From NCBI GenBank assembly GCA_016212095.1, contig JACRHH010000015.1, positions 124,001 to 188,000 on the forward strand: a stretch of DNA of 64,000 nt, written 5' to 3'. The stretch is from Nitrospirota bacterium (GTDB lineage Bacteria > Nitrospirota > Thermodesulfovibrionia > SZUA-242). Below the pieces are notes generated by a model. That model made no database searches and had not been told where the DNA came from. It saw only the letters and a list, made by a program, of their open reading frames with translations. This document shows positions 45,197 through 50,582 of this stretch, piece by piece; position 1 is the stretch's first letter, and the number at the start of each line of letters is the position of its first letter. The position numbers and the translations under genes are program-made.

Positions 45197-45209
<13 letters not shown>
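45018..45209 (-). CDS. Lone HicB-like protein
   Basis: This 63-residue protein shows the HicB-type partial RNase-H fold: LKIIIEKHPDGYIAYPPGLKGVVIGEGDSYDEALADVKSAI. No HicA toxin is adjacent and there is no C-terminal DNA-binding domain. Its ATG overlaps the end of the BrnA-like antitoxin gene by 13 bases, making a three-gene chain BrnT-BrnA-HicB-like. It may be a leftover antitoxin or an added component of the BrnTA unit. Confidence 0.8.
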
Positions 45210-45713
<504 letters not shown>

Positions 45714-45935: not shown

Positions 45936-46892
45936 TTACGCGCCTCCATCCGCTGCATCGCTTTCAAGCACCAGTTTGGCGTGATATATCGGCTTGTTCT
46001 GGCTCTCGTGATATGTGCGCGCCAGCATTTCCGCAATCAGGCCCATGCCGATCATCTGAACGCCGATGATTATAAGCAGCACGCCAAGCAGAAGGAGCGG
46101 CCTGCCACCGATGTCCCTGCCTCGGAAAACCTTTTCGCAGGCCAGATAGAACGAGATCATGAAGCCGGTGAAGCCCGACAGAAGCCCTATAGGCCCGAAC
46201 GCCTGAATCGGCTTCGTGGAGTAGCTCTGGAGAAACTTCACGGTGATAAGATCGAGAAACACCTTGATTGTGCGCGATATTCCGTATTTCGACTTGCCGA
46301 ACCGGCGCGGATGATGCGTTGTCTCGATCTCGCGCACGCGCGCGCCAACGTGGCTTGCCACAGCCGGAATGAACCGGTGCATCTCACCATATAGATTGAT
46401 CTTTTTCACCACGTCGGCCCTGTACGCCTTGAGGCTGCATCCGTAGTCGTGCAGCCTCACGCCGGTCACTTTCGAAATCAGACGGTTTGCCATTATCGAC
46501 GGAAGCCGCCGCGATATGAACTTGTCCTTGCGGTTTTTGCGCCAGCCCGAAACGATGTCGCAATGTTCTATCTCGGCAAGGAGATTCGGAATGTCCTTCG
46601 GATCGTTCTGGAGATCGCCGTCCAGCGTGATGATGACGCCGCCCTTTGCCGCGTCGAAACCGGCGGCGAACGCGGCGGTCTGGCCGAAGTTGCGGCGGAA
46701 GCTTATGACCGCCACCTTTTTATCCTTCTCGTGAAGCGCGGTTATGAGATCGAGAGTGCTGTCGGTCGAGCCGTCGTCAACCAGAATCAGCTCGTAAGGC
46801 CGTCCGACGCCATCCATCACGCCTTTTACCGCTTCGTAAAGATGCGGAATGCTCTCCTCCTCGTTGTAGAGGGGAACAAGCACCGACACCAT
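45936..46892 (-). CDS. Family 2 glycosyltransferase, polyprenyl-phosphate type
   Basis: This 318-residue protein starts MVSVLVPLYNEEESIPHLYE and has DDGSTDSTLDL and the DGDLQNDP metal site of GT2 enzymes, a QTAAFAAGFDAA segment, and two C-terminal membrane helices. This is the build of ArnC/GtrB-like enzymes that load a sugar onto undecaprenyl or dolichyl phosphate. The start at 46892 is chosen by homology; no clear ribosome site is visible and a longer in-frame version overlaps the previous gene. Its product would be the donor for the PAP2-GT39 protein encoded just upstream. Confidence 0.92.
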   Translation of the reverse strand: MVSVLVPLYNEEESIPHLYEAVKGVMDGVGRPYELILVDDGSTDSTLDLITALHEKDKKVAVISFRRNFGQTAAFAAGFDAAKGGVIITLDGDLQNDPKDIPNLLAEIEHCDIVSGWRKNRKDKFISRRLPSIMANRLISKVTGVRLHDYGCSLKAYRADVVKKINLYGEMHRFIPAVASHVGARVREIETTHHPRRFGKSKYGISRTIKVFLDLITVKFLQSYSTKPIQAFGPIGLLSGFTGFMISFYLACEKVFRGRDIGGRPLLLLGVLLIIIGVQMIGMGLIAEMLARTYHESQNKPIYHAKLVLESDAADGGA

Positions 46893-46909: not shown

Positions 46910-48913
46910 CTAAAATGACTCTGCCTCCATCGGCGACATGCCCTTGAAGCCGTAACACCGGAATATAGTGAATTCCTGCATTATCGCGCCGTATTTCTCG
47001 ATTTTAACCTGCTCCGGCCCGCCGGTTTTCTCGAAGGCGGCTGCAATGTTTCGCGGCATCCTGTCGTCCGCCATTATAACAAAGATCGCGTCGCGGCCCT
47101 TGAAGCCGTAAAAGCCCGGCCAGATGTCATACTGGTTCATCCTGCGGTCTCCGGGCGCGCAGTATGTGGCCGGATTGCCCTTCATGTAGAACGCAAGCTC
47201 GCTCGCAGCCATGTAGCTGTCCGAAATGATGAACGTCGTCTCCGGCGAAGGCATCGACGCGAGCGCTTCGTCGGAGCGTTTTGCAAGCTCTTGCCAGCCG
47301 ATCAGCTTGTCCATTGTTGCGGCGCGCGCGGTAACCTTGTGCATGAGAAACGGGCTGTGAACAAGCAGCGTGAGCGCCAACGCCGGAACAAGCGCGGCGG
47401 CCCATGCCGCTTTTGCGCGTGATCCGCCATGCCACTTGCCGGCATAAAGCGCGAACATGACAAACAGCGCCGGATACGCCTCCATAGCCCAGTTGGCCTG
47501 CACCTTGCCAAAAAGGCTTTTTATCACGAAAAAGGCAAGTATCGGGATCGAAAACGAGAACAGAAACCGGCGGTTTCTGCCGCGTTCGATCCGGCGGCTG
47601 AAGGCTGCGACAAGCAGCATTGCCAGCAGAACCGGCGAGATAACGCCGATCTGCGACAGCACGAAACCGCCGAATTCTTCCAACGCCGACATAAAGCCAT
47701 TGCCGTTCTGCACCACATGATTCGCGCTATGCCGGAACGTCACCCAGTCGTGTCCGGCGTTCCAGGCGATCACCGGAATAAAGACGGCAAGCGCCACGGC
47801 TGCGGCTATCAAAGGCTCTTTGCGCCTGAGCCAATGCCTGTCATCCCCGCTTGCCGCCATGAAAACAATCGCTGCGGGCATGAACAAGGCCATGGTGAAT
47901 TTCGTGAGCAGACCAAGCCCGATTGTCAGCCCCAGCCATATCCAGTCGCTTGTCCGTCCGTCATCCGACATGGCCCGATGGAACAGAAACATGGCAATGC
48001 ACCAGAGCGCCATGAACGGCGGATCGATGGTCATTACAATGCCGTAAACAGAAAACAGGGGCGTTGCGTGAGGGAGCATAGCCGCTAGAAGCGCGGTCTT
48101 GCCGCTAACGCGCATTCTCATCGCAAGCCTGAATATGAAGACCGACATGACGATTGAACAGATCATCGCACCGGCGCGAATCGCAAGCTCGCCGTTTCCG
48201 CCGATGGCAGTCTGCGCCCGGATAAGCCACGCGATCATCGGCCCCTTGGTGTAGTAGCTCCAGTCGAGCCTCCGCGACCATTCCCAGTAATGCGCCTCGT
48301 CGCCCGACAGATCGAACGGCCCCCACAGCACCACAAGCACACGCATGATCGTGATGAGCGCAAGCGCATACCCAAGCACGAACGCGTCCGGCATCCGCTT
48401 TTCACGATCCTCAATATATGGCGACAGGCGCGAAACGCCGTATCCGGTCATTGTTCCAAGCAGGCCGCCAACCAGCACATCGCCCGGATAATGCGCTCCG
48501 ACGTAAACCCGCGAGAATGCCACAGCCGCAGCGACAGCCCACATCAGCGCGGCGGCGCGGTCGCGCCACAGAAACCAGACCGCTGCGATCGAGCCAAACG
48601 ACGTGGCCGCGTGATTGGAAGGCATCGAAAACGCCTTGCCGCATCCGGCCAGCACGCGGGCGTCGGCAAGGGCTCGGCATGGCCGCACGCGTCCGATGAA
48701 ATGCTTCAACTGGTTTCCGATCGCGTCGGCCAGCACCGCGGCGATAATCGCCATCAAAAGCACCCGCAGGGTTTTGCGCCAGTCGCGCGCGGCGTGAACC
48801 GCTATGAACGGGAGGGTGTAGTAGTACCAGTTATTGGTGAACGACGGCATGAACCCGTCCAAAAACGGGTTTGCGCATCCGTGATTTATTAGATAGAAAA
48901 GCCAGGTATCCAT
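46910..48913 (-). CDS. PAP2 phosphatase-GT39 glycosyltransferase fusion
   Basis: This 667-residue membrane protein combines two enzymes. Residues 1-165 form a PAP2 lipid phosphatase with K70-x6-R77-P78, PSNH (98-101) and SRVYVGAHYPGD with H141 and D145. From about 175 on is an ArnT/PMT-like GT39 enzyme with the acidic DEAHYW motif (205-210) and about ten membrane helices. The neighbouring GT2 would make a polyprenyl-phosphate sugar, the GT39 part would transfer it (probably to lipid A or another periplasmic acceptor), and the PAP2 part could dephosphorylate a lipid. The gene starts only a few bases from a palindromic repeat and has no ribosome site. Confidence 0.88.
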   Translation of the reverse strand: MDTWLFYLINHGCANPFLDGFMPSFTNNWYYYTLPFIAVHAARDWRKTLRVLLMAIIAAVLADAIGNQLKHFIGRVRPCRALADARVLAGCGKAFSMPSNHAATSFGSIAAVWFLWRDRAAALMWAVAAAVAFSRVYVGAHYPGDVLVGGLLGTMTGYGVSRLSPYIEDREKRMPDAFVLGYALALITIMRVLVVLWGPFDLSGDEAHYWEWSRRLDWSYYTKGPMIAWLIRAQTAIGGNGELAIRAGAMICSIVMSVFIFRLAMRMRVSGKTALLAAMLPHATPLFSVYGIVMTIDPPFMALWCIAMFLFHRAMSDDGRTSDWIWLGLTIGLGLLTKFTMALFMPAAIVFMAASGDDRHWLRRKEPLIAAAVALAVFIPVIAWNAGHDWVTFRHSANHVVQNGNGFMSALEEFGGFVLSQIGVISPVLLAMLLVAAFSRRIERGRNRRFLFSFSIPILAFFVIKSLFGKVQANWAMEAYPALFVMFALYAGKWHGGSRAKAAWAAALVPALALTLLVHSPFLMHKVTARAATMDKLIGWQELAKRSDEALASMPSPETTFIISDSYMAASELAFYMKGNPATYCAPGDRRMNQYDIWPGFYGFKGRDAIFVIMADDRMPRNIAAAFEKTGGPEQVKIEKYGAIMQEFTIFRCYGFKGMSPMEAESF

Positions 48914-48914
48914 T

Positions 48915-48950
48915 TTTTGTAGGGGCGGTTCGCGAACCGCCCCTACAAAA
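48915..48950. repeat. 36-bp perfect palindrome at the hisB stop codon
   Basis: The two arms are TTTTGTAGGGGCGGTTCG and its exact complement. The hisB stop TAG (48945-48943 on the minus strand) lies inside it, and the start codon of the PAP2-GT39 gene follows one base after its other end. It belongs with the palindrome at 7997-8069 in a dispersed repeat family. It could act as a terminator or block translation of the next gene. Confidence 0.85.
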
Positions 48951-49527
48951 TGCCCTTGGTAGACCGCACGCCTGTTATGCGCGGATCGTTCGTGACGGCA
49001 TCTCCCAAAGCCCGGCCAAAGCTCTTGAAGACAGCCTCGATAATATGGTGAATGTCGCGCCCGTAGTGCAGGATAACGTGCAGGTTCATGCCCGCGTGGC
49101 TGCTTGCGGCGCGGAAGAAGTCCTCGAAAAGCGAGGCGTCGAGGTCGCGGATCATGCCGGTGGGCTGCTCAACCTTGTAAACAAGATATGCCCGGCCCGA
49201 CAGATCGACAATCACCTGCGCCAGCGTTTCGTCCATCGGCGTTGTCGCGTCGCCGTAGCGCCTGATGCCGCGCTTGTCGCCAACCGAGTCGCGTATCGCC
49301 TGCCCCATCACAATTCCCATGTCTTCAACAAGATGATGGTAATCCACCTGCGTGTCGCCGGTTGCCTTCACCCTGAGGTCGAACAGCCCGTGCCGAGCCA
49401 TCAGCGTGAGCATGTGATCCAGAAACGGCACGCTGGTTTCAACCGAATACTTGCCTGTTCCGTCCAGATCGAGTTCCAGCTCGATGTCGGTCTCCTGCGT
49501 TGTGCGCTTGACTGTTGCCTTTCTCAT
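48943..49527 (-). CDS. hisB: Imidazoleglycerol-phosphate dehydratase
   Basis: HisB dehydrates imidazole glycerol phosphate in histidine synthesis. The 194-residue monofunctional form has the metal-binding repeats FLDHML...HGLFDL, DYHHLVEDMGIVMG and HAGMNLHVILHYGRDIHHIIEAVFK. ATGA overlaps the end of hisC. Its stop codon is supplied by a palindromic repeat. No further his genes follow in this direction. Confidence 0.97.
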   Translation of the reverse strand: MRKATVKRTTQETDIELELDLDGTGKYSVETSVPFLDHMLTLMARHGLFDLRVKATGDTQVDYHHLVEDMGIVMGQAIRDSVGDKRGIRRYGDATTPMDETLAQVIVDLSGRAYLVYKVEQPTGMIRDLDASLFEDFFRAASSHAGMNLHVILHYGRDIHHIIEAVFKSFGRALGDAVTNDPRITGVRSTKGIL

Positions 49528-50582
49528 ATAACCGCCCCCTTCAAGGCTTCAATAAATTCGGAGTTCTCCTCCGGACGCCCGACTGTCACGCGAAGACATC
49601 CGCCGACTGAGCTGTCGAGATTTCTCACCAGTATTCCGCGCTCAAGCAGGCGCGCGTAAACACCCGGCGCGTCGCCCACCCTGAACAGGATAAAGTTGGC
49701 GTCGGACGGGAACACCGTTACTCCGTTGACACCGGCCATTTCGGCAACCATTCTGTCGCGCCCTGCGGCAATCGATTCTATCGCACTGTTGATGCCGTCG
49801 AATTTCGAGAGCGCGCAAACAGCCGCCGCCTGCGACAGCGAGTTGATATTAAACGGAAGCCGGATCTTGTTCACCTCGCCGACTATTTCAGGCGATGCGG
49901 CCATGAAACCAAGCCGGAGCGCGGCAAGCCCGATCTTGCTCAAAGTGCGCAGGACAATCATCCGGGGGAAATCTGCAAGGCGCGGAATGAAACCATCGCC
50001 GCCCGCAAACGGCTGGTATGCCTCATCAACCACAACGATTCCGGAAGATGCCTCGCATATTTCAAGGATGCGCTCATCCAAAAAACGGTTGCCGGTTGGA
50101 TTGTTCGGCGACGCCAGAAATATCAGCTTCGGATTCGAGGCCGAAATCGCCTCCTTCATGCGCGCAACGTCGAGATCGAACCTTGCGTCGAGCGGAACCT
50201 CCACGCAACCGGCCCCAAGACCGCGCGCGATGATGCCGTACATCGAAAACGTGGGAACCGGATAGAGCACCGGCCCGCCGAATGTCGTTATCAGAAGCGA
50301 GATTATCTCGTCGGAACCGTTGCCCAAAAGCAGATTGTCCGGCGATAACCCGTGCATTCCGGCAAGTATTTTTTTAAGGGCCGAGGCGTCAGGATCGGGG
50401 TAGCGGTTAAGTTCGACCAAGCGCATGGCGTCCGCCACGACGTCTGCGTTGGCGGGCATGTACGGGCTTTCGTTTGCGTCGAGTTTGACGCGGCACGGAA
50501 TCTCCTTTGCCTCGTAGGCCCTGAGCGCGCGAACGTTCGGCAGCACAAGGGAAAAAACCGCATTGCTGGTATCGTTTTTCAC
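49524..50582 (-). CDS. hisC: Histidinol-phosphate aminotransferase
   Basis: HisC is the PLP transaminase of histidine synthesis. The 352-residue protein has LDANESPY near the start, GNGSDEII, ASPNNPTGN, VVDEAYQPF and the PLP lysine K216 in LRTLSKIGLAALRLG. It overlaps hisB by four bases. It lies divergent from the RDD-mreB operon, with a 136-base region between them holding promoters. Confidence 0.97.
   Translation of the reverse strand: MKNDTSNAVFSLVLPNVRALRAYEAKEIPCRVKLDANESPYMPANADVVADAMRLVELNRYPDPDASALKKILAGMHGLSPDNLLLGNGSDEIISLLITTFGGPVLYPVPTFSMYGIIARGLGAGCVEVPLDARFDLDVARMKEAISASNPKLIFLASPNNPTGNRFLDERILEICEASSGIVVVDEAYQPFAGGDGFIPRLADFPRMIVLRTLSKIGLAALRLGFMAASPEIVGEVNKIRLPFNINSLSQAAAVCALSKFDGINSAIESIAAGRDRMVAEMAGVNGVTVFPSDANFILFRVGDAPGVYARLLERGILVRNLDSSVGGCLRVTVGRPEENSEFIEALKGAVI

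Follow-up and report, generated by a model that had tools for sequence, protein, structure and literature searches.

We analysed a stretch of 64,000 nucleotides from a Nitrospirota genome (the window), in which positions 46910..48913 of the minus strand form a single open reading frame encoding 667 amino acids from ATG to stop. In a translation check the plus strand of the same interval was interrupted by stops. The N-terminal PAP2 half (residues 1-172; 48398..48913, minus strand) was assigned from PF01569, an LpxE fold and conserved residues, and the C-terminal GT-C half (residues 173-667; 46913..48397, minus strand) from PF13231 and an ArnT fold. The boundary at residue 172/173 is our own choice inside a short linker. 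In Pfam, PAP2 matched residues 55-166 (PF01569, E 3.6e-20, 72.5 bits against a cut-off of 27.2) and PMT_2 matched residues 223-384 (PF13231, E 2.7e-37, 128.9 bits against a cut-off of 26.1).

The catalytic motifs of PAP2 phosphatases are KX6RP, PSxH and SRX5HX3D, and all of them were found: K70 (codon 48704-48706, minus strand), R77-P78, PSNH at residues 98-101 (48611-48622, minus strand), SR at residues 134-135, and H141 and D145 (H141-D145 codons 48479-48493, minus strand). The DEAHYW motif follows at residues 205-210 (48284-48301, minus strand). With the exact reading frame, both Pfam domains and these residues in place, the original prediction of one 667-residue chain that carries a full PAP2 motif set and DEAHYW is borne out. 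An AlphaFold2 model built from an alignment of 77 fused proteins gave a single confident chain (pLDDT 89.4, pTM 0.87), in which residues 1-163 superimpose on LpxE of Aquifex aeolicus (6ebu; Z 20.3, rmsd 2.8, 156 aligned residues, 27% identity) and residues 170-655 on ArnT of Cupriavidus (5f15/5ezm; Z 26.6, rmsd 3.7, 430 aligned residues).

Conserved Residues and Predicted Topology

Conservation was assessed in 77 distinct fused proteins that are 32-43% identical to the window protein. In the PAP2 half K70, R77, P78, P98, S99, H101 and R135 are invariant (77/77), and H141 and D145 are each kept in 76 of the 77 proteins and replaced by Q and S in L099; N100 of PSNH is less fixed (64/77). Conservation of the PAP2 residues, on which the original prediction depended, was therefore found. 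The exceptional protein (L099:8016-9923) is a fused relative with a PAP2 half that lacks H141/D145 and a GT half that keeps its invariant residues. These are D205, E206, Y209, W210, K223, D297, K470, N474 and W475 (77/77), and H208 of DEAHYW is found in 73 of the 77. The GT-C acidic pair D205/E206 and K223 align with D31/E32 and K61 of E. coli ArnT. Cysteines 79 and 91 co-vary, both being present in 71 proteins, neither in five and a single one in one. Because they are gained and lost together, they suggest a putative periplasmic disulfide.

The spacing between D145 and D205 is 54-60 residues in all 77 proteins (median 60), and in the model the last PAP2 helix (143-173) runs nearly continuously into the first GT helix (175-197) with no extra membrane span. 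The mean net charge is +2.2 to +2.5 on three predicted cytosolic stretches, the linker included, and -2.0 on the first predicted periplasmic loop of the GT half. The predicted periplasmic loop 71-98, which holds the catalytic K/R, has a mean net charge of +1.4, contrary to a simple charge rule. On balance, the two active sites are both expected on the periplasmic side, and their arrangement would leave little room for change.

Gene Neighborhood of the Fusion

Directly downstream lies an ArnC-like GT2 gene (45936..46892, minus strand), encoding a probable polyprenyl-phosphate sugar synthase and assigned from PF00535, the ArnC model and conserved adjacency. Its ATG start at 46892 was chosen after the start of a relative (L102), the longest open reading frame beginning with GTG at 46958. 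ArnC is the best NCBIfam model for the protein at 232 bits, below the cut-off of 529. Among the loci from the best 80 of 294 relatives, 71 leave at least 1 kb of room, and in 69 of these GT2 immediately follows the fusion. It also adjoins the fusion in 19 of 21 loci from the phylum genome sample; eight proteins are common to the two sets. Scoring of open reading frames alone gave 63/71 and 17/21, and tblastn recovered GT2 genes masked by overlapping frames. With both methods, the loci left without a GT2 next to the fusion were L051 and L061 (2/71) and L009 and L013 (2/21). In the 80 fused loci with a scored frame the GT2 protein is 60-75% identical to that of the window, and the 63 measured gaps between fusion and GT2 span -48 to 212 bases; 52 deviate from zero by no more than 12 bases. 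The adjoining polyprenyl-phosphate GT2 that had been noted earlier is thus confirmed by domain, best model and conserved adjacency.

The next gene after GT2 encodes a PF03706/TIGR00374 protein in 64 of the 66 loci with at least 2.1 kb of room, and by its family name this protein is a candidate flippase. The window itself carries GT2 but no PF03706 gene. The PF03706 gene of the window genome is located on another contig (C6), beside genes resembling the MnmG and RsmG families, and 16 fused loci have an MnmG-family gene on the downstream side of the module. Since the PF03706 gene thus stands beside genes that elsewhere are downstream neighbors of the module, the module seems to be divided in the lineage of the window. 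The place where most fused relatives with room have PF03706 is occupied in the window by a BrnT toxin family gene (45387-45689, minus strand; PF04365, E 1.7e-28), and a small overlapping open reading frame (45197-45502) had no Pfam match up to E 0.01. As GT2 and PF03706 genes are paired in L131, L134 and L135 with no fusion next to them, such pairs may serve other transferases too. Since GT2 (69/71) and PF03706 (64/66) accompany it, the fusion resembles the output enzyme of a polyprenyl-phosphate-sugar system with three components.

Upstream of the fusion lie hisB (PF00475) and a PF00155 gene, which we take to be hisC (together 48943..50582, minus strand). As the same order is found in a genome of the same family (G190), these genes belong to the local neighborhood rather than to the module. 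In 13 of the 97 fused loci (e.g., L023:3329-4111) a gene for a PlsC-type acyltransferase (PF01553) lies upstream on the same strand, no more than about 1 kb away; many of the 97 loci are short, and the gene is absent from the window. Where present, it is a weak hint of a link to lipid metabolism.

Distribution of the Fusion and Separated States of Its Halves

The phylum sample comprised 198 genomes, 68 of them in the class of the window, and matches were accepted at E 1e-20. At this threshold 60 of the 68 same-class genomes have a match and eight have none. A domain-architecture check for PAP2 together with GT39, as proposed with the original prediction, found a single frame with both halves in 45 of the 68 genomes (a hand count that treats G093 as fused although its match stops at residue 491). 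The other 15 of the 60 matching genomes were not counted as fused: G180 with an in-frame TAG, G113 with a broken GT half, G192 with a C-terminal fragment, G190, G184, seven genomes with the GT half only and three with the PAP2 half only. A total of 97 fused open reading frames among 121 loci, representing 89 distinct proteins, one of which (L001) is the window's own gene, rules out a chance fusion or a mis-assembly.

The 80 named loci represent the best of 294 relatives and are therefore biased toward full-length fusions. Within them, 75 carry Nitrospir- or Thermodesulfovibrio-type names, most relatives being metagenome-assembled genomes, and five are named otherwise: L036 (Nitrospinota), L098 (Proteobacteria), L100 (Deltaproteobacteria), and the unplaced L046 and L075. 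Both L036 and L098 are fused; the names of all five may be wrong. Plasmid records with a match numbered 22, all from Rhizobium. The GT39 proteins on these plasmids are similar in length and were considered as the same fusion, but the two that were checked have no PAP2 match: the N-terminal part is GtrA-like in L127 and has no Pfam name in L126. In both records (L126:4545-7931, L127:2972-7875) the long GT39 protein stands beside a GT2-GtrA fusion.

The two halves are also found apart. In L097, L103, L118 and L100 they are adjacent separate genes. In L007:359-2386 (identical to L033 there) the frame is continuous except for one in-frame TAG at the PAP2-GT linker, which may be a recent division, readthrough or an error, the three being indistinguishable. 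The GT half is present with GT2 and no adjacent PAP2 in L106-L109 and L113, and PAP2 is present with GT2 and no GT half at the locus in L102 and L105. Locus L102 belongs to G190, a member of the window's own family, and shares the window's hisC-hisB-PAP2-GT2 order, with the GT half alone missing. Halves on other contigs were found in G184 (GT half) and G012 (PAP2 half; L113). In the source genomes of L106-L109 (G164, G178, G144 and G090) all PAP2 matches reach at most 55 bits, compared with 73-92 bits for the fused match in seven fused genomes; because no stronger match exists there, the PAP2 half has probably been lost rather than relocated.

Trees made by a quick method gave eight changes between the fused and separate state for GT (112 rows) and six for PAP2 (108 rows). 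The PAP2 of L102 groups with that of the window (99), and the GT row of the window sits on a long branch, so that its placement in the GT tree is unsure. The trees fit repeated separation, with the direction unproven. As the GT-only (L106-L109, L113) and PAP2-only (L102, L105) loci keep GT2, the coupling is not obligatory and the halves are separable. The physical coupling claimed in the original prediction therefore stands in so far as many members of the class have both domains in one protein, with GT2 and a flippase-like gene as neighbors, and is weakened by the split states. That close homologues might be split into separate genes with unrelated neighbors had been named as a finding that would speak against it; this is partly the case, as split states exist (G190 without the GT half, the seven GT-only and three PAP2-only genomes), yet in several loci the pieces adjoin the same GT2.

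Relationship of the PAP2 Half to Known Phosphatases

To place the PAP2 half, curated models and profile scores were compared. The window protein matches the SepP model NF047884 with 55.5 bits (cut-off 250), the YbjG model NF008813 with 40.9 bits (cut-off 229) and the LpxE model NF007159 of the PRK09597 type with 18.3 bits (cut-off 177), all below cut-off; the LpxF model NF045633 gave no match up to E 0.1. In 33 of the 77 fused proteins, the models matching the PAP2 half were SepP (33/33), YbjG (32/33), PgpB (25/33) and LpxE (5/33), and NF045633 was absent from the nine families that these relatives matched up to E 0.001. A profile of the PAP2 half scored Aquifex LpxE with 86 bits (partial sequence), E. 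coli YbjG with 82, YodM with 73 (partial sequence), LpxT with 47, PgpB with 43 and an LpxF-like protein of R. tumorigenes with 37. The other SepP-like PAP2 protein of the window genome (L002) reached 86 bits. These scores put Aquifex LpxE and an undecaprenyl-diphosphatase at nearly the same distance from the PAP2 half. Among solved structures, Aquifex LpxE is the best match of the family profile and YodM, a phosphatidylglycerol phosphate (PGP) phosphatase, ranks second among the membrane PAP2 proteins of the fold list (Z 15.7); structures of the YbjG or SepP type are absent from the fold lists, which excludes nothing. The available text on Aquifex LpxE reports that it acts on lipid A, Und-PP and PGP (PMC6581854).

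In the window genome a separate 232-residue open reading frame (L143:265-963, on contig C4 of G000) joins diacylglycerol kinase (PF01219) and PAP2 in one chain.

A missing 4'-phosphate substrate can be dismissed: LpxK was found in all 30 genomes examined, and therefore lipid A 4'-phosphate is made. The canonical L-Ara4N route was rejected too, E. coli ArnA being matched only within residues 1-311 in 15/15 genomes. Because only this first part is matched, the sugar is probably one other than canonical L-Ara4N. Such a match is what a formyltransferase domain, for instance that of Fmt, would give.

Possible Functions of the Fusion

Tentatively, and with somewhat less than even confidence, we propose that the fusion is a bifunctional enzyme in the inner membrane of the cell envelope, in which PAP2 removes a phosphate from a lipid, most likely lipid A, and a sugar replaces the phosphate. 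By their families, GT2 would charge polyprenyl phosphate with the sugar and the PF03706 protein would act as the candidate flippase of the module. On the periplasmic side, the GT-C half would then take the sugar from the polyprenyl-P-sugar; the PAP2 half, in the same orientation, would strip a phosphate from the same envelope lipid, plausibly freeing the acceptor site. The sugar would thereby replace the phosphate, and a single polypeptide would follow the phosphatase-then-glycosyltransferase order known for lipid A in Aquifex and rhizobia. Such an exchange of phosphate for sugar on lipid A is supported by the fused state in 45 of 68 genomes, the PAP2 triad in 76 of 77 proteins, the GT-C acidic pair and K223 in all 77, the conserved GT2/PF03706, the same-side topology, Aquifex LpxE as the closest solved PAP2, and LpxK in 30/30 genomes. 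Against it stand the NCBIfam comparison, which favors undecaprenyl-diphosphatase models for the PAP2 half, the existence of GT-only and PAP2-only loci, and the net positive loop 71-98. A search of the open-licence PMC literature for lipid A work on Nitrospirae found nothing relevant. Put in its most specific form, as a class-typical single-protein exchanger in which PAP2 strips a lipid A phosphate and a rigidly joined GT-C adds a polyprenyl-borne sugar, the proposal becomes more doubtful and is offered as a possibility.

The strongest alternative is that PAP2 is an undecaprenyl-diphosphatase making periplasmic undecaprenyl phosphate for the GT2 of the module, with the GT-C half as a conventional transferase that adds sugar to lipid A, core or another glycan. 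It agrees with the commonest curated models, which are those of Und-PP phosphatases, with the score of YbjG level with that of the partial Aquifex LpxE, and with L102 and L105, where PAP2 adjoins GT2 without the GT half; Aquifex LpxE itself hydrolyses Und-PP according to the available text of PMC6581854. The need for such an activity is not evident, however, as 19 of the 20 genomes examined have BacA and the window genome has another SepP-like PAP2 protein (L002). The sole genome of the 20 in which a BacA match is absent is G168, a fusion carrier that is 99% complete, and this genome also favors carrier supply. As BacA gave no match there, Und-PP phosphatase activity may come from other phosphatases, PAP2 proteins among them. 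Transfer by an ArnT-type GT-C releases undecaprenyl monophosphate, not Und-PP, and needs no phosphatase. Recycling of the carrier is therefore not required, and its role as the reason for the fusion, as suggested in the original prediction, appears doubtful, also in view of BacA in 19/20 genomes. Taken together, we consider supply of the carrier by the PAP2 half a serious possibility that we would not call probable.

It is unlikely that PAP2 instead dephosphorylates phosphatidylglycerol phosphate, phosphatidic acid or another envelope lipid, whose product the GT-C half would glycosylate. The PGP phosphatase YodM would fit this with its Z of 15.7 and 73 bits for a partial sequence, as would the same-strand PlsC-type acyltransferase within about 1 kb in 13 fused loci, but 13 of 97 loci, many of them short, are few and the gene is absent from the window. 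Least probable is an LpxT-like enzyme that moves phosphate from Und-PP to lipid A, with the GT half decorating it and the fusion fixing an LpxT-ArnT contact: LpxT, a PAP2 family member, co-purifies with ArnT in Pseudomonas aeruginosa, but the available text of the same report proposes a partial block of ArnT by LpxT (PMC13142001), and LpxT reached just 47 bits against 86 for LpxE and 82 for YbjG.

Comparison With Known Systems

Among known systems, the GT-C half comes close to ArnT (GT83; Cupriavidus 5f15/5ezm and E. coli arnT), with which it shares the GT-C fold, aligned D/E, Y, K, R and D positions and the type of partner, the best model for GT2 being ArnC. In difference to ArnT, the fusion adds a PAP2 half, scores 41.2 bits with the ArnT model NF009784 (cut-off 567) and occurs without a full-length ArnA match in 15/15 genomes. 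The PAP2 half resembles Aquifex LpxE in fold, but LpxE stands alone, whereas the window protein is fused and its substrate may differ. SepP and YbjG, the best curated models for the PAP2 half although both remain below cut-off, are here joined to a GT-C domain. Three-component periplasmic glycosylation (GtrA/GtrB/Gtr and pentofuranose systems) has in common with the module a GT-C transferase and, judged by family, a carrier-charging enzyme and a candidate flippase, as described in the available text of PMC11127046; here PF03706 replaces the GtrA, MATE or SMR proteins and a PAP2 domain lies within the GT-C protein.

The rhizobial LpxF/RgtD pair combines a phosphatase and a GalA transferase at the same lipid A position (PMC7663294, in its available part). 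The LpxF-like PAP2 of R. tumorigenes is only distantly related to the window family, with the 37 bits given above, and on the plasmid its gene lies upstream of a long GT39 protein. Table 4 of PMC7663294 gives OCA5_cRS09935 for lpxF and OCA5_RS09935 for rgtD of Oligotropha carboxidovorans, a bacterium with a published lipid A structure; judged from these printed locus tags, LpxF and RgtD may be one protein in this organism, and the available text of the article does not call them a fusion.

Among the titles and abstract openings listed by searches of the open-licence PMC literature we recognised no description of a PAP2-PMT_2/GT83 fusion. What sets the fusion apart is a phosphatase built into the transferase of a system that resembles three-component periplasmic glycosylation. 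Even if the PAP2 half supplies the carrier, a phosphatase would be built into a periplasmic glycosylation module, with the PF03706 protein as candidate flippase. If the exchange of phosphate for sugar is true, one protein would perform two lipid A steps that are elsewhere done by separate enzymes. This would predict a phosphate-poor, sugar-capped lipid A in the carriers of the fusion, and with it the lipid A chemistry of a large group that is known largely from metagenome assemblies.
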